NCBI GenBank assembly: GCA_026401035.1
Contig: JAPLNR010000053.1
Location: 1-64,000, forward strand
Source of the DNA: Planctomycetia bacterium
GTDB lineage: Bacteria > Planctomycetota > Planctomycetia > Pirellulales > UBA1268
DNA length: 64,000 bases
Direction: 5' to 3'
Shown here: positions 22,500 through 62,351 of the stretch, one piece after another
Numbering within the stretch: the first letter of the stretch is position 1
Layout of the letters: the number at the start of each line of letters is the position of its first letter
Translations under genes and position numbers: made by a program
The notes under the pieces: model-generated
What the model saw: the letters and a program-made list of their open reading frames with translations, nothing else
Told to the model about the DNA's origin: nothing
Database searches by the model: none

Positions 22500-23546
22500 A
22501 GGCGGAGCGTCCCGTGCCGGGCTACGTCGAGGAGGAACTCCGCGGGTATCTCGAGTGCGGCATCCTCTGCTTCTCACTTCGGCCGTGCCCTCTGCACGGG
22601 CTGCGGCCAGGGGTTTGACCGGCGTTCCTGCCGGCCCGACCGATCAACCAGGCCGATCTGGCCGCGCTCACCGAGCGGGTGCGCCGCCGCGTGATCCGCT
22701 TTCTTCAGGCTCACTCGCCTGCTCGACACCGCTGCCGCCGCCGACATGCTCGCCTGGGAGAACAGCGGGTTTTCAGTCGATGCCAGTGTTCGGATCACGC
22801 TCATCGACCGCGACGTGCCGAGCTACTTTCAGAGCTTGGAGCACCTGCTGCGGTATTGCGCCCGGCCACCCTTTGCGCTCGAGCGACTCTCTGTGACACG
22901 TGACGCAAGCGGCCGCGTAACCAAAGTCCGCCACGTGCTCCCCCGACACAAAGCCGCCAACTGGGTCGGCCCGGGCCGCTCGCGAACGTCCACGCGACCG
23001 GGGGCGAACGGCGTCGTTGACCTCTCGCCGTTTGAGTTTCTCGACCGGCTCGCCGATCTCGTGCCGCCGCCGCGCAAGCATCGGCACAGGTATCACGGGG
23101 TGTTTGCACCCAACCACAAGCTCAGGCGGGCCGTCACGTCGCTTGCGATCGGGAACGTCGGAAAGCGCCAAGAGGCGGTGACCGGCGGGCATGGGGGCGA
23201 CGGTCATGCCACGGAAGGATGCTGCGACGCAAATCCGAGTCACAAGCCCCGCTCGCACGACACGTCTCGGATTGCCTGGGCCAAGCTGATGGCCCGGGTG
23301 GGTGAGGAGTTTCCACTTGCGTGCCCCACCTGCGGCGGCGACATCCGGCTGATCGCATTCATCACCGATCCGGGGCCGATCCGGAAGATCCTGACACACC
23401 TCGGCGAACCACTCGAACCACCGCCCCTCTCTCCCGCCCGTGGCCCGCCGACCGACTGGGGAGAGTTCGTGCAGGTCCATGACGACCGGGCAATCTTTCA
23501 GGGATGGATAGACGAGCTGTCCGTGATCGACATCCACAGCCTCTGA
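22500..23546 (+). pseudogene. IS91-family transposase, catalytic core deleted
   Basis: The N-terminal zinc-finger part is recognisable near 22520-22620 (YVEEELRGYLECGILCF, FGRALCTGCGQGF), but is frameshifted. It is joined directly to VRRRVIRF and, after another shift, to ENSGFSVDASVRI, LLRYCARPPFALERL, KHRHRYHGVFAPNHKLR, WAKLMARVGEEFPLACPTCGG and RLIAFITDPGPIRKIL, which form the C-terminal third of IS91-type transposases. The segment that should hold the HUH and tyrosine motifs is missing, so the protein cannot nick DNA. The final 266 codons from 22746 are intact and could be mistaken for a gene. The element may only move if a transposase is supplied in trans. Confidence 0.75.
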
Positions 23547-33830: not shown

Positions 33831-33838
33831 GAAAGTGG

Positions 33839-33903
33839 GACAGGCTTTAGCCTGTTCGACACGACGATTGCACTCCGGAAAGTAGGACGGGCTTTAGCCT
33901 GTC
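33839..33903. repeat. Two GACAGGCT-type palindromes
   Basis: GACAGGCTTTAGCCTGTT (33839-33856) and GACGGGCTTTAGCCTGTC (33886-33903) lie between the convergent epimerase and hydrolase genes. Each can fold into an 8-bp hairpin. They belong to a family present at three other convergent junctions in this window. Confidence 0.85.
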
Positions 33904-34068
33904 ATCTTCTGGCATGAGCAGACCGGCCGCATTGCTCGCCGGCGGTGACATGCTCGGAGCCGCGGAAATTGCTACAGGAGGCTCGTGGGTGATTGGGAAT
34001 CGTCCGTGAGTCGCAATTGTCTGCGGCTCCTGCGCGTGCCCCCGACCGTCTCCTCAGCATCGGGAGCC
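33883..34068. repeat. 186-bp dispersed repeat, copy 1
   Basis: Aligned without gaps to 62112-62297 with roughly nine in ten bases identical. It starts with the palindrome at 33886 and includes ATGCTCGGAGCCGCGGAAAT and CGTGAGTCGCAATTGTCTGC in both. Internal inverted segments (AATTGC with GCAATT, CAGGAG with CTCCTG) allow a branched fold. It contains no open frame worth calling. Confidence 0.85.
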
Positions 34069-34117
34069 GAAGATACCGCGGCGTCTTGCGATGGCAGCAG
34101 ATGCACCGTCGCCCAGC

Positions 34118-39531: not shown

Positions 39532-39903
39532 ATGGCTTCACGCGACGAACTCGGCCGTCGTGGAGAAGACGAGGCGGCCAAATACCTGCGCGGCATCGGC
39601 TACCGGATCATCTCCCGACGGGAACCCGTGCTCCGCGGAGACATCGATCTGATCGTGCTCGACGACCGCACGGTGGTGTTTGTCGAGGTCCGAACCCGCA
39701 GCGACACCGCCCACGGGCATCCGGCGGAGACGGTCGGCCACCAGAAGCAGCGGCGCATCGCCCAACTCGCCAACGCCTACATCCGGCGGCATCGGCTCGA
39801 AGACTGCCGGGTGCGGATCGACGTCGTCACCGTGACGTTCAACGGGCCGGAAGGCCGGCCGGTGCTGGAACACTTCCAGAACGCATTCGACAGCCCCTGG
39901 TAA
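39532..39903 (+). CDS. yraN: YraN/UPF0102 family protein
   Basis: A 123-residue protein of the endonuclease-like YraN family, typically encoded near rplS and rnhB. RDELGRRGEDEAAKYLRGIG, GDIDLIVLDDRTVVFVEVRT (restriction-endonuclease-like D...E-x-R/K core) and DVVTVTF are present. The cellular role is poorly defined. ATG 39532 is used. Its TAA directly touches a GACAGGCTTCAGCCTGTC palindrome. Confidence 0.92.
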   Translation: MASRDELGRRGEDEAAKYLRGIGYRIISRREPVLRGDIDLIVLDDRTVVFVEVRTRSDTAHGHPAETVGHQKQRRIAQLANAYIRRHRLEDCRVRIDVVTVTFNGPEGRPVLEHFQNAFDSPW

Positions 39904-39995
39904 GACAGGCTTCAGCCTGTCGAATCTGGCACTGGTCGGCGACAGGCTGAAGCATTTCGAATCCGGCACTGGTCGGCGACAGGCTGAAGCCTGTC
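39904..39995. repeat. Array of GACAGGCT-type palindromes
   Basis: Intact palindromes at 39904-39921 and 39978-39995 plus a half copy at 39941-39953. The stretch between contains a 37-base near-duplicate (CGAATC-GGCACTGGTCGGCG unit at 39921 and 39958). It fills the whole gap between the convergent yraN and App1 genes and touches both stop codons. Confidence 0.9.
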
Positions 39996-41066
39996 CTACA
40001 GCGGCGACACGTCGGCCAACTCCTCGGCCTCCACGAACACCCGGAACGTGCCGGCGGGCAGACGGCGGGCGAGGCGGTCGAGACGGAAGCGGATCTTCTC
40101 TCGCGGTGCCTTGCCCTCCACCTGCCGGATCACGATGCCGGCCACCTGCTCGGGCCGGCGCCGGGCGATGGCGGCATAGACCTCCGGATCCCGTTCACCC
40201 GAATCACCGACCAGCAGGAAACGGCGGCCGGGAAACTCCTCCATGATCTGCTCGATCGCCCGACGCTTCGACCGCTTCCGCAACGGCAGACGGCCCAGCG
40301 GCGTCGAATCCTTGAGCCGGAAGAGCTTGAGGTGCATCGAGCCCGCGGGGAGTCCCGTGGCGCCAAGAAATCCACCGAGGCACGTGGCCAACTGCCAGGG
40401 ACTGGCGGAGACGTAGTGAAACGCGGTGCCCCCGTCCTGCCAGCGACGGTAGACATCGACCATGCCGGGCACCGCCTGGAATTCCCGCACGAACGTGTTG
40501 GCGAGCAGCTCGCGGCGATTGGCGACGTTCGTCACCTTCACGGTGTCGTCGATATCGCTGACCACCGACAAGCCCTGCGGATCGATCAGTTGGATGCGGC
40601 CTCCGACCGGCGTCGCTCCGGGATCGGCGGCCGCCGCCCCGACGTCGGCCGGCCCGATCGATTCCTCGTCGTCGATCAAACCTTCGTAGGTGATCCAGTC
40701 GCAATGGGCCGCGCCCGTCGCGGCAGTGGCTGCGTCGAGTTCGAACGTAGTGCGGAAATGTCCGGTCCGGTCGGTATGGCCGGCATCGATGATCTGGCCG
40801 CCAAGCCTGATCCGCACCGGCTGCCCGGCCACCCGCTGGAAGAGAAAGGCGTCGGCGCGGCGCTGAAAAACCTCCGACTCGACCTGCACATCGTCCAGGT
40901 CCAGGAGCCGCTTCAGCACCGCCATCGCCAGCGCCCGCCGCCGACTCCGGAGCGGCAGGGGCCGGGTCACCATGCCTGCCACGGTGGCCTGCCAGCGACC
41001 CTCGCCGGGCATGCGCCGCGCGTAGGTGGGAAAGAAAACGATCATGCGGCTGCTGCCGGGTGCCAT
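39996..41066 (-). CDS. App1-like phosphatidate phosphatase domain protein
   Basis: A 356-residue protein. The C-terminal 180 residues form an App1/DUF2183 HAD-like phosphatase: VVSDIDDTVKVTNV (catalytic D-x-D-x-T), FHYVSASPWQL and RRFLLVGDSGERDPEVYAAI. The N-terminal half is a beta-rich domain. Yeast App1 dephosphorylates phosphatidate; bacterial members are uncharacterised. ATG 41066 is preferred to the codon at 41084. The stop TAG is contiguous with the repeat at 39978-39995. Confidence 0.85.
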   Translation of the reverse strand: MAPGSSRMIVFFPTYARRMPGEGRWQATVAGMVTRPLPLRSRRRALAMAVLKRLLDLDDVQVESEVFQRRADAFLFQRVAGQPVRIRLGGQIIDAGHTDRTGHFRTTFELDAATAATGAAHCDWITYEGLIDDEESIGPADVGAAAADPGATPVGGRIQLIDPQGLSVVSDIDDTVKVTNVANRRELLANTFVREFQAVPGMVDVYRRWQDGGTAFHYVSASPWQLATCLGGFLGATGLPAGSMHLKLFRLKDSTPLGRLPLRKRSKRRAIEQIMEEFPGRRFLLVGDSGERDPEVYAAIARRRPEQVAGIVIRQVEGKAPREKIRFRLDRLARRLPAGTFRVFVEAEELADVSPL

Positions 41067-56774: not shown

Positions 56775-57980
56775 ATGGTCACCCGGCATGCCCTTCACGT
56801 CATCGATCACCACGTCGCCCGCTTCCGGCGGCAGGCCGCTGGCCGCCGCATTGCGATCCTGTTGACACTCTGCCTGCCGCCATGGGCCGCACCAGCTTCC
56901 GCCTGCCCGTTCTGCGGCGTCGTCGGCCAGTCGCTGGCCGAGCGGCGTGATGCCGCGGCGGTCGTGGCCGTGGGCGAGTCGGATGGAGGTGCGGCGGCGG
57001 ATGCAGCCGGGTTCCCCACGCAGCGGTTTCAGATTCATCAGGTGCTGCGCGGGCTACAGCCCAAGGCACGGGATCGCGCCGGAGAAATGGTGGCGGCCCG
57101 CGTGGCCGGCCCGGTGGCGGGAACGGCGGTGCTGTTCGCCACGGCGGACGCGCCGCCGCGCTGGACCGCACTCGCGGCCAATGAAGCGGTGCTCGCCCAC
57201 ATAGTCACGGCGCCGGCCATGACGGCGCCGGCAGCCGAGCGGCTCCGGTGGTTTGCCCAGCGGCTCGAACATCCAGAACCCGCTATCGCGGAGGATGCGT
57301 TCACGGAGTTTGGCCTTGCCCCCTTCGAGGCGGTGCGGGAAGCCGCCGACGCGTTCGACAGGAAAAAACTTCGCGGGTGGGTCGGTGAGCCCGGCATCGA
57401 CCAACGGCGGCGCGGCTTTTATGGACTCGCGCTCGGCCTCGTGGCGGCGAGCGTCGATGACGCGGCCGAACGGGCTGCCTGCCTCGACGTCCTGCATCGC
57501 GCCCTGGAGGCGCCGGGCGACGATTTTCGTGCGGGCTTCGACGGCCTGATGGGGGGCATCCTCGTGGCCGAAGGGCCGCGCGGCCTCGAGCATCTCGACA
57601 GCCGCGGCCTGTTTGGGCCGGACGCCCGGCCCGTCGACCAGAGGCACCTGCTCTCCGCGTTGCGGTTCGCCTGGGAAAACCTCGGCGGCTCGATCCCGCG
57701 CGATCGGATCGCGGCGGCAACGGCCGCGCTGCTCGCCCGGCCCGTGGTGGCCGCCGCCGCGGCGATCGATCTTGCCCGGTATCAGGCATGGGACGCCGTC
57801 GACGACGTGGCGAATCTCTGGGACACGCTCGGCGCGGAGGATCCGCTCGTTCGCCGGGCCGTCGCGGGGTATCTGTCCGCCTGTCCGACACCGGCGGCCA
57901 GAGAGCAGGCGGCGCGGATCCGACGGCAGAACCCTGCCGCCTTCCAGCAGGCGGTCGAGGCAGTGGCGTTGCCACAGTAG
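56775..57980 (+). CDS. Secreted ACPFC-motif protein (paralogue 2)
   Basis: A 401-residue protein. The signal peptide ends in APASACPFCGVVGQS, placing a C-P-F-C motif at the mature N-terminus as in 50958-52541. The two also share WFAQRLEHPEPAIAEDAFTE with FGLAPFEAVRE, the matching segment of the first being FAVAPYDDVRG. Overall helical, HEAT-like, no catalytic residues recognised. It lacks the C-terminal membrane helix of its paralogue. Its TAG stop is directly followed by a GACAGGCTTCAGCCTGTC palindrome. Confidence 0.65.
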   Translation: MVTRHALHVIDHHVARFRRQAAGRRIAILLTLCLPPWAAPASACPFCGVVGQSLAERRDAAAVVAVGESDGGAAADAAGFPTQRFQIHQVLRGLQPKARDRAGEMVAARVAGPVAGTAVLFATADAPPRWTALAANEAVLAHIVTAPAMTAPAAERLRWFAQRLEHPEPAIAEDAFTEFGLAPFEAVREAADAFDRKKLRGWVGEPGIDQRRRGFYGLALGLVAASVDDAAERAACLDVLHRALEAPGDDFRAGFDGLMGGILVAEGPRGLEHLDSRGLFGPDARPVDQRHLLSALRFAWENLGGSIPRDRIAAATAALLARPVVAAAAAIDLARYQAWDAVDDVANLWDTLGAEDPLVRRAVAGYLSACPTPAAREQAARIRRQNPAAFQQAVEAVALPQ

Positions 57981-58046
57981 GACAGGCTTCAGCCTGTCGG
58001 ATGGCATGCCACGTTTTTGCCGATCGGCGACAGGCTGAAGCCTGTC
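57981..58046. repeat. Pair of GACAGGCT-type palindromes
   Basis: GACAGGCTTCAGCCTGTC at 57981-57998 and, inverted, at 58029-58046, separated by 30 bases. They exactly fill the gap between two convergent genes and touch the TAG stop of each. The pair can also form one long stem. Confidence 0.95.
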
Positions 58047-60377
58047 CTACTTCAATTGCGTCGCCGCGGCGACGTCGGGCGACGTGACCGCGTTGGCCGA
58101 CGGCAGGGCATCCTGTGTCCAGTGGGCGACGGCCCGCAGCGCTTCGTCGCGACCTCCCACCGCCGGCGGCAGGCTCGCGCTCGTGCCGGGGATCGTTCCG
58201 GGGATCGCCATCGGGGGCGGCGTGGGGAGCAGTTCGGGAGCTCCATATCCAGACCTTTCCTGCGGCGTGCCGGGGAACACCCGTGGCACCTGCTGCTCGG
58301 TTTCGCGGGTCGACGGGTCACGGGGTGGCAACTGCACGGCCTGGGCGTCGGCACCGACCGACTCGAAGTTTTGCGTGATCGCTCCGCGGCTGAAGACACC
58401 CGGCCGCGAGTGGCCGTAGTCGAGGTAGATGCTCGCATCGCGCTGACGGGCCCGACGGTGGGCGTCGAAGTAGGCCTTCCCCGGCCACGGACCCTCGGCG
58501 AGAAACACGCCGTTGTATTCGAGCAGCGAACCCTTGCGGTAATGGAGCTGCGAGATCGAGCGGTTGTAGTCGACCAGGGCGCGGTAGTAGGAGCTCTCCG
58601 CCTCGGCCCGCCGCCGCTGGGCGTCGAGCAGTTGGTCGAGCGTGACGGTGCCGGCGTCATAGGCGGCCTGCACCGCCTCCACCTGCCGCTCGGCGGCCAC
58701 GCGGCGGTTGAAGTTGGTCTGCGAGAGAGAGAAGTTGGTGTCGACATTTCGCACCGCCTCGACCAGCGCGTGCGAGGCCTCGAGTTCCTCGTCCTGCAGC
58801 CGTGCCCGTTCGCGGGCCAGGCTTAACTGGAAGTGACGCACGGTCGCCATTTCGCGGCGGAAGCCGAGCGGCATCAGGAACTGGGCCCCTGCCTGCCACT
58901 CCTGATACTTGCCGCTCAAGAGTGAGGAATAGGCATCGGTACCCTCGAGGCTGTCAGTGACTTGTCCGCCGACGATCGGCCCGGGCTGCGGAAAAGGCTG
59001 GTAATCCTGATTGATCAATTCCTTGCCCGTGCCGAGGAACCGCCAGCGGCCGACGAGGTCGAGCCGCGGGAGCAGCAGGTTCTTGGCCGCCGTGAGCTCG
59101 AGTTCACGCTGCTTGATCACCCACTTCTGCTTGCGGAGTTCGGCCGACCGCGACAGGGCCTCGACGAGCGACTGCTGCCAGTCGAAGGCGATCCGGGCCG
59201 TGGTCGGCTCGTCGGCGGGCCGGATCAGCCGGCCGTCGCTGGCGGTGATGCCCATCATGTAACGGAGTCGATTTTCGCAGCGGTAGACGTCCGTGAGCGC
59301 CTGCTCCACTTCGCTACGGAAGAAGAAATACTGCTCGCGGGCCTGAGCCTCCTTGTCGGCCTCGCCACCCCGCGACTGCTCCACGTAGAGGGCATGCACC
59401 TTCCGCCAAGCCTCGAGCGAACTGTCGCGGCCGGCCTTGCGGGCCTCGAGGTTGCGGTAGGCGAAGTACAGTTCCCAGTATGACTGCTCGGTATCGCTGA
59501 CGAGGTTGCGGACGCCGGACTCGAATTCGGCCAGCGAGATGTCGGCATTGATCCGCGCCAGGAGGACACCGCGGAAGTTGGGCCTGCCGAAGACGTTGTC
59601 AAACGTGTCGGGGCCGGCAATGCGGTTGTAGGTGACACCCGCCCCCTGCAAGAGCGGCTGGTTGAAGCTGAAGTCGTAGGCGGTGGTCCACGTCGTATCG
59701 ACGTCGCGGAAGGCGTTGTTCGTATTGGCGGCCGTAATGCTGTTCGACACGCCGAACTGCGCACCGGTCGCCGTGCGCTTGGTCAGGCCGACTGAATTGG
59801 TGCCGTTGACGGTCTTCAGCACCGGCACGAACAGAAATGTCTGGAATATCGGATCGACGTTCTGTGGACGATTCCCCGATTCCCAGGTCGAACTGGCGGA
59901 CACTTGGGCATCGAATGCGGCCAGCGCGCTCTCGACTCCGCGGAACGGATCGGTCTCTGCGATCGCCGGGTCGTAGATGCTCGGCGTCTGAGCCGGCGCC
60001 GTCAGCAGCGACACCGGCGGCTCGCCGGTCTGCGGCCGCGGCCCGCCGAAGCTTGCGAAGCGGCCGCCGAGGTTACGGAGCACCTTGCCGTTTTCGAGTG
60101 CGGTGCGGATCGCCTCCTCGAGCGAGAGTTCCCAGATCTGGTCGAACTTCGCGTTGGTGAGCGTCAGCGGTTCGGTCGTGCCGGCCGCCTCGTCGAGCGG
60201 CTGCTGCTCCGTATCCGGATATTCGAGTTTTTGAATCGCCCCGACGTAGTGCGAGAGGTCGCCGTCCTCGAAGAAGTAGAACGGCTGCCGCGGCGCACAT
60301 CCTCCCGCGAGCAGCGAAACGCTCGTCAGGATCACCCAGGTTGTTCGGATGGTGCGATGCACGGGGGGCAGTTCCAA
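58047..60377 (-). CDS. TolC-family outer membrane efflux protein
   Basis: A 776-residue protein with a lipobox-like signal (VSLLAGGC). Two OEP repeats of helical hairpin and beta strands are visible: FDFSFNQPLLQGAG-type sequence, SDTEQSYWELYFAYRNLEAR, EVEQALTDVYRCENRLRYMM and DAGTVTLDQLLDAQRRRAEA with ESSYYRALVDYNRSISQLHY. It is longer than the usual 450-500 residues, with N- and C-terminal Pro/Gln-rich extensions. It would form the exit duct of a tripartite efflux or secretion system; inner components are not in the window. Confidence 0.88.
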   Translation of the reverse strand: MELPPVHRTIRTTWVILTSVSLLAGGCAPRQPFYFFEDGDLSHYVGAIQKLEYPDTEQQPLDEAAGTTEPLTLTNAKFDQIWELSLEEAIRTALENGKVLRNLGGRFASFGGPRPQTGEPPVSLLTAPAQTPSIYDPAIAETDPFRGVESALAAFDAQVSASSTWESGNRPQNVDPIFQTFLFVPVLKTVNGTNSVGLTKRTATGAQFGVSNSITAANTNNAFRDVDTTWTTAYDFSFNQPLLQGAGVTYNRIAGPDTFDNVFGRPNFRGVLLARINADISLAEFESGVRNLVSDTEQSYWELYFAYRNLEARKAGRDSSLEAWRKVHALYVEQSRGGEADKEAQAREQYFFFRSEVEQALTDVYRCENRLRYMMGITASDGRLIRPADEPTTARIAFDWQQSLVEALSRSAELRKQKWVIKQRELELTAAKNLLLPRLDLVGRWRFLGTGKELINQDYQPFPQPGPIVGGQVTDSLEGTDAYSSLLSGKYQEWQAGAQFLMPLGFRREMATVRHFQLSLARERARLQDEELEASHALVEAVRNVDTNFSLSQTNFNRRVAAERQVEAVQAAYDAGTVTLDQLLDAQRRRAEAESSYYRALVDYNRSISQLHYRKGSLLEYNGVFLAEGPWPGKAYFDAHRRARQRDASIYLDYGHSRPGVFSRGAITQNFESVGADAQAVQLPPRDPSTRETEQQVPRVFPGTPQERSGYGAPELLPTPPPMAIPGTIPGTSASLPPAVGGRDEALRAVAHWTQDALPSANAVTSPDVAAATQLK

Positions 60378-61622: not shown

Positions 61623-62114
61623 ATGAGTGAGAATGATGTGCATCCTTCCGTCGCGATCACGTTCGACTGCACGCCGCTCCGCGGTGTGCCGCGGCTCGAC
61701 ATTCCGCTCGACGCCTCGCCGGTGTTTCGGGCCCGGCTCGAACGGATGCAGCGGGCCGTTGCCAGCCACGGCACCCGCAACGCCTATTATCTCACGAATG
61801 CCCGCTGTCGGTTTCACTTCACCAACGACCCGGCCATTGGCTGGGTGCAGTTCACGTTCGAGGGCACGCTCCTGACCGACGAACTCGATCGCAAGACGGT
61901 CGGCAGCGATCTCGACATCCGGCTCGAAAAGGAGACCTGCGACTGGCTCACGCAGCCGGCCGTGCAGTGGCTCACGCTCTCGGTGAAGCATGCGGTGGAG
62001 GTGGAGTTTGACCGCTACATCGCCGCGGGCGATCTCTCGCGGGCCCTCGAGCGGCTCGCCCGTGAGCAGGCCGCCAGCGACGCCGCCGGCGGCTTCCTCG
62101 GCATGAACCTGTAG
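61623..62114 (+). CDS. Conserved-looking hypothetical protein
   Basis: A 163-residue cytoplasmic protein, divergent from apbE with only 18 bases between the starts. ITFDCTPLRGVPRLDIPLDA, SHGTRNAYYLTNARCRFHFT and IGWVQFTFEGTLLTDELDRK suggest a beta-rich fold. I recognise no family. Its TAG stop begins copy 2 of the 186-bp repeat. Confidence 0.65.
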   Translation: MSENDVHPSVAITFDCTPLRGVPRLDIPLDASPVFRARLERMQRAVASHGTRNAYYLTNARCRFHFTNDPAIGWVQFTFEGTLLTDELDRKTVGSDLDIRLEKETCDWLTQPAVQWLTLSVKHAVEVEFDRYIAAGDLSRALERLAREQAASDAAGGFLGMNL

Positions 62115-62297
62115 GACAGGCTTCAGCCTGTCATCTTCTTGCATGAGCCGGCTGGCCGTATTGTTCGCCGGCGGTGACATGCTCGGAGCCGCGGAAATTG
62201 CTACAGGAGGCCCGTGGACGATGGCGAATCGTCCGTGAGTCGCAATTGTCTGCGTCTCCTGCGCGTGCCCCCGACCGCCTCCTCAGCATCGGGAGTC
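62112..62297. repeat. 186-bp dispersed repeat, copy 2
   Basis: Matches 33883-34068 over its full length. It starts with the palindrome GACAGGCTTCAGCCTGTC (62115-62132) and lies between convergent genes, like copy 1. GGACGAT (62217-62223) can pair with ATCGTCC after a short loop, nested inside AATTGC / GCAATT. Confidence 0.88.
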
Positions 62298-62351
62298 GCA
62301 GGTCTTAAAAGTCGGACAGGCTTCCGCCGACCGCCTCCCCAGAGAGCAGCG

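Follow-up and report, generated by a model that had tools for sequence, protein, structure and literature searches.

The window, the whole stretch of 64,000 nucleotides analysed here, contains two copies of a dispersed repeat at 33882-34072 (+) and 62111-62301 (+), which lie 28.2 kb apart and were aligned to each other by blastn within the window without gaps, at 174 of 191 identical positions (91%, E=3e-74). These values agree with the initial annotation, which had described two full-length copies of high identity and equal length 28 kb apart, with coordinates that proved accurate to a few bases. It had also defined a unit of 186 bp that starts with a palindrome. Such a stretch does exist in the window and both copies begin with a GTAG-tagged palindrome (GTAG followed by GAC(G/A)GGCTT(T/C)AGCCTGTC), but copy 1 reads GACGGGCT rather than exactly GACAGGCT, and the boundary of the 186-bp unit is that of a composite, not that of the repeat family. 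The composite consists of a REP palindrome, a linker and a separate core of ~142 bp, and the features in the window are as follows.

33835..33856 (+): extra degenerate REP GTGGGACAGGCTTTAGCCTGTT, upstream of copy 1
33882..33903 (+): GTAGGACGGGCTTTAGCCTGTC, a GTAG-tagged REP palindrome at the left end of copy 1
33904..33925 (+): linker of copy 1, common to most copies in the window genome and absent from the copies of other genera
33926..34066 (+): core element of copy 1, a 5′ motif GCCGCATTG (33926-33934) followed by a 132-nt hairpin
33935..34066 (+): hairpin of copy 1, with a basal stem, a middle stem GGAGCCGCGGAAATTGC/GCAATTGTCTGCGGCTCC and a variable apical hairpin (covariance model match, 138 bits)
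62111..62132 (+): GTAGGACAGGCTTCAGCCTGTC, the REP palindrome at the left end of copy 2
62155..62295 (+): core element of copy 2 (covariance model match at 62164-62295, 134 bits)

A sequence related to the degenerate REP at 33835..33856 occupies the same place in most copies of the window genome (G000; 3.77 Mb in 82 contigs), where the REP and another REP-like sequence stand ahead of the core. Among relatives within the family, similarity was confined with few exceptions to query positions ~43-187 and the upstream neighbours differed: another repeat precedes the core in G018, and parts of the core recur in clusters of other palindromes in G013. The unit of the family is therefore the ~142-bp core, and the succession of REP, linker and core is an arrangement typical of the window genome. 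The ends of the core are sharp; among 36 copies with full flanks from genus g9, conservation opened at CCGNATTGG, nine bases ahead of the model, and ended after TCAGCATCTGGAG, with unrelated sequence further out on both sides. Cores in the genera seen start with CCGNATTGG/TTCGCCGG or CCGNATTC/GGAG, and none of them carries GTAG at the base of its palindrome.

The GTAG REPs, their RAYTs (REP-associated tyrosine transposases) and their occurrence in Planctomycetes have been described previously (PMC3733652), and the left 22 bp of both window copies resemble them by tag and palindrome. This segment combines a 5′ GTAG with a short imperfect palindrome and a high copy number, as its motif returned 182 matches per strand in the window genome at up to three mismatches, compared with 0 for a reversed control pattern. 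Elsewhere in the window (39900-39999 and 57977-58050), GTAG REPs also form two head-to-head inverted pairs, a BIME-like arrangement.

Using copy 1 as a blastn query, we found 45 matches in the window genome, 17 of which spanned most of the query and eight of which stopped exactly at contig ends, mid-element, indicating copies broken by the assembly. A covariance model placed the number of core copies in this genome at about 32. Across the family the model detected the element in 30 of 72 genomes, with one to at least 46 core copies per genome; the positive genomes belonged to genera g1 (6/6), g9 (5/5), g4 (17/22), g10 (1/2) and g11 (1/1), and seven other genera had none. Beyond those 30 genomes, no match was found among 397 genomes of the order. 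The element is restricted to one planctomycete family, in five of its 12 genera. Searches of viral contigs, plasmids and phages gave no match, and the named records among the listed matches to the exact core motif were all planctomycete metagenome assemblies, some with doubtful species names. The initial annotation had advised a search of the genome and its relatives for further copies, and its counter-case of only two copies with disrupted stems does not apply: copies are many, and their stems carry compensatory changes.

The nested inverted segments claimed inside the repeat are present, and they fold. The core is a single long hairpin of ~133 nt with a variable tip, in which pairing has been kept by compensatory change, and the covariation check proposed for the internal fold gave positive results in two alignments. 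The structure was first drawn on A2, a set of 32 sequences gathered by sequence similarity alone, in which 85% of cells pair compared with 37-46% when the partners are slid. A2 contained 52 double-change cells (21 in shuffles) and had a covariation score of 0.144 (0.079 in shuffles); none of 500 shuffles matched its cells paired, double-change cells or covariation score, while the counts of double-change pairs (reached by 42 of 500 shuffles) and of pair types (386 of 500) were unexceptional. The second alignment, A4, comprised 49 more divergent copies aligned with MAFFT without reference to structure. In A4, the extra members of which came from a model search that biases towards the structure, 24 of 40 pairs showed double compensatory changes against 14.4 ± 2.0 in shuffles, together with 114 double-change cells (35.2 in shuffles), 60 further pair types (48.2) and a covariation score of 0.203 (0.106), and not one of 500 shuffles attained any single measure. 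Paired cells again amounted to 85% among these 49 diverse copies, falling to 34-44% when slid. By way of example, columns 37-93 held U-A in 26 copies, C-G in 15 and A-U in 6, columns 38-91 held U-A in 39, A-U in 5 and C-G in 2, and columns 18-115 held A-U in 45, G-C in 3 and C-G in 1. Sequence and fold were both variable in the apical part, and RNA folding z-scores for eight copies ranged from -1.4 to -5.2.

This extended pairing bears on the suggestion of a MITE, in the classical sense of an element derived by deletion from a DDE transposon and bounded by terminal inverted repeats and target duplications. The element is dispersed, non-coding and short, and an inverted repeat (in some copies GGAGYCGG...CCGRCTCC) forms the base of its hairpin, but the inverted repeat of the basal stem runs on continuously into the remaining hairpin, and pairing extends over the full element, with covariation far into its interior and not at the ends alone. 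Neither a target duplication nor a parent transposon was found: an autonomous parent with the same ends was absent from the Y1_Tnp and IS91-type Y2_Tnp loci examined, and at the loci inspected with the model it never matched an element interrupted by a gene. A classical MITE is therefore very unlikely. A small protein gene is more improbable by far; copies 1 and 2 are each traversed by an ORF (MSRPAALLAGGDMLGAAEIATGGSWVIGNRP in copy 1, a similar one in copy 2), and frames are open in some copies from several genomes, yet closely related copies carry frame-shifting indels and stops while base pairing is kept, an indel pattern that refutes a protein-coding reading. An integron attC site was also rejected, as the R″ and R′ boxes (RYYYAAC / GTTRRRY) were absent at the ends by inspection and the copies are scattered, with no cassette arrays.

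Gene neighbourhoods were assessed with a simple, heuristic codon-usage gene caller, and background gaps were drawn from the same loci and the window. All but one of 93 copies lay between predicted genes, the exception (L005) involving a doubtful call on a short contig. Where both neighbouring genes were known, 51 pairs were co-directional, 27 convergent and 3 divergent. In a larger set, gaps containing the element were co-directional in 63 cases, convergent in 41 and divergent in 4, compared with 80, 16 and 61, respectively, for gaps without it, showing that divergent gaps are depleted of the element (4 vs 61 in the background, p=3e-12). Gene 3′ ends lay at a median distance of 82 nt, compared with 156 nt for 5′ ends.

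Comparison of sites between close species showed turnover, the direction of which was apparent in some cases and not in others. At one site that is filled in G022, the related genome G059 lacks the element and has 62 bp in place of 258 bp between flanks that are 95% and 93% identical, and a second empty site was found in G018 (L247/L136 comparison). Within genus g9, 14 comparisons were made of sites occupied in two species, and the element had opposite orientations in 3 of them. One orthologous site showed a complete swap of the middle stem (ATTCTGC/GCAGAAT vs ACTTTGC/GCAAAGT) between flanks of 94-96% identity, consistent with conversion or with another copy having taken its place. Target-site duplications were not visible at the filled and empty pairs, where intergenic divergence is too great to exclude short ones. 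An ancestral copy shared by genera was considered for a gap adjoining a gene that resembles tRNA-guanine transglycosylase (L015/L106/L088/L107) and was rejected, as the elements occupy differing positions in that gap. The proposal of a mobile intergenic element is supported by the many copies at unrelated intergenic sites, and by presence/absence and inverted occupancy between close species.

The copies might instead be kept for a working RNA hairpin, as a selected structured non-coding RNA such as a multi-copy sRNA or a 3′-UTR/terminator-type element. The strong covariation in A2 and A4 would be expected of such an RNA, as would a U-G pair that is nearly invariant (47 of 49 copies in A4) and the position near gene 3′ ends. 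Some orthologous copies outdo their coding flanks in conservation (100% vs ~90% identity), which could reflect selected function rather than mere mobility. In addition, the fold of the + strand was stabler than that of the - strand in 121 of 141 copies, by a mean of 4.5 kcal/mol compared with 2.8 kcal/mol in composition-matched shuffles; since composition alone yields 96 of 141, strand specificity of the fold is no more than suggested. Against a structured RNA, a conserved promoter-like sequence was not found upstream of the core, and copies in co-directional gaps showed no orientation preference (28 with the genes, 23 against) and therefore have no fixed relation to host transcripts. G-T and A-C mismatches were equally frequent in helix 2 (44 vs 46), the sites of copies shift between close species, and there was no Rfam match to the element, the window returning two tRNAs only and a best sub-threshold match at copy 1 of E=3.8. 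The structured RNA that the initial annotation had listed is possible, but with neither promoter-like sequence nor orientation preference found we regard it as rather unlikely.

Candidate mobilising enzymes were sought in the same genomes. Movement of a BIME/REP composite by a RAYT, a transposase of the IS200/IS605 superfamily, would be in keeping with the left end, a very abundant GTAG-tagged palindrome typical of RAYT-linked REPs (PMC3733652), with the only Y1_Tnp match in the window genome, a truncated relic of 60 positions, and with the class 3 TnpAY1 genes and atypical repeated structures of planctomycetes (PMC6006769). However, other genera have the core without GTAG REPs, neither the core nor the window REP occurs near RAYT loci, and RAYT presence does not track core presence. 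When 72 genomes were searched with the Y1_Tnp profile (PF01797), element-bearing G018, G003 and G060 had no match, an absence that is no proof since these assemblies are 72-96% complete. No significant element match was found near Y1_Tnp loci, and the window REP did not occur in the flanking sequence of 30 such loci, taken to about 1.5 kb unless the contig ended sooner. We consider a RAYT-moved composite unlikely, and the case for applying it to the core is weak. A link to reverse transcriptase was rejected, as PF00078 was present in just 12 of 72 genomes and in none of genus g9. The IS91-type Y2_Tnp (PF04986) is widespread, but this link was also rejected: the element was absent from the ends at the 20 PF04986 loci fetched, and on the lone contig with both element and IS91-type gene (G015:C148) several kb separate them.

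As an observation on the IS91-type genes themselves, the window encodes at 22746-23546 (+) a 266-aa ORF that contains a C-terminal fragment of a Y2_Tnp (IS91-type HUH transposase), and many similar fragments occur in the window genome and its relatives. IS91-like elements at L384, L391, L399 and other Y2_Tnp loci have a common sharp end, AAGGATAGCCCGGYCAATGGCAC, with unrelated flanks, and those with this end appear to form a multi-copy family in the same planctomycetes.

Taken together, we consider that the copy in the window is probably a member of a lineage-restricted, non-coding family of interspersed hairpin repeats, REP/BIME-like and evolutionarily mobile, that is fused here to a REP. This reading follows from the copy number, the family restriction, the REP-less cores in relatives, the compensatory changes, the filled/empty and inverted sites, the unrelated flanks, the intergenic placement and the modular fusions with other hairpin repeats; the lack of a linked transposase at the loci examined, the lack of a visible target-site duplication and the orthologous copies that are better conserved than their coding flanks count against it. 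The core would spread, or would have spread, non-autonomously, and a mobilising enzyme, presumably supplied in trans, would recognise it by the fold of its single strand. Insertions would be tolerated mainly behind gene 3′ ends and eliminated between divergent promoters, recombination may partly homogenise the copies, and the adjoining REP would be a separate hitch-hiking module. As to the class of element, we tentatively suggest a so far undescribed kind of mobile DNA made up solely of a single ~133-nt hairpin, which an enzyme of neither known RAYT nor known IS91 type could copy via the folded single strand, as DNA or as RNA, its fold being selected across five genera; this is a possibility to which we give limited credence.

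Among known systems, GTAG REPs and BIMEs (PMC3733652) are similar in being high-copy intergenic palindromes found in mosaic clusters near gene 3′ ends, but the core differs in its length of ~133 nt, its one long, nearly continuous hairpin, its lack of GTAG and its occurrence without REPs in relatives. A survey of 40 bacterial genomes (PMC2267715) has made families of stem-loop repeats a familiar kind of element, likewise interspersed and intergenic with a common predicted secondary structure; judged by description, the present family is set apart from them by its hosts, uncultured freshwater planctomycetes, and by compensatory changes across genera. The class 3 TnpAY1 genes described in planctomycetes, which are accompanied by atypical repeated structures (PMC6006769), and the TIRtrons (PMC6006769, PMC3733652) also involve repeated structured planctomycete elements, but theirs are HUH-linked, whereas no HUH gene (Y1 or Y2) was flanked by our element in the loci examined. 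By the features tested, the core fits neither GTAG REPs nor class 3 TnpAY1 structures. The enterobacterial 127-bp RU-1 and 168-bp RU-2 repeats (PMC2759123, PMC2229807), likened here by description and from a different phylum, are comparable in size, intergenic location, largely non-coding nature and MITE-like dispersal. A description of the element was not found in the open-access literature searched, which covers few subscription papers. The repeats form a genuine family that is interspersed, structured and restricted to one lineage; the family is new, its kind already known. It adds a well-delimited hairpin repeat family and a usable covariance model to a phylum with poorly described intergenic repeats, and the compensatory change seen throughout this dispersed family opens to testing a general question, namely whether interspersed palindromes of bacteria stay folded for a mobilising enzyme that reads the fold or for a working RNA.

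The element also accounts for several contig breaks in the metagenome-assembled genome of the window. Contigs C3, C42, C43, C46, C59, C61 and C78 terminate 83-101 bp inside copies, and the repeat therefore limits the assembly of this genome. Variant cores were observed as well: three in the window genome (L009, L013 and L014) have a middle-stem region enlarged by a 24-nt insertion (within GTGAGGTCTCCGACCCACCTGCGGTGTGC), an insert that also adjoins other core fragments, and one copy (L008, G000:C14:53089 region) has tandem CTGTCATGAG / CTGACATGAG decamers at its left end. On the reverse strand of G013:C16 (L148) we found a miniature derivative from which the hairpin has been cleanly deleted, leaving TGGTTCGCCGGCTGCGGCATGCTCCGCAGCATCTGGAG.
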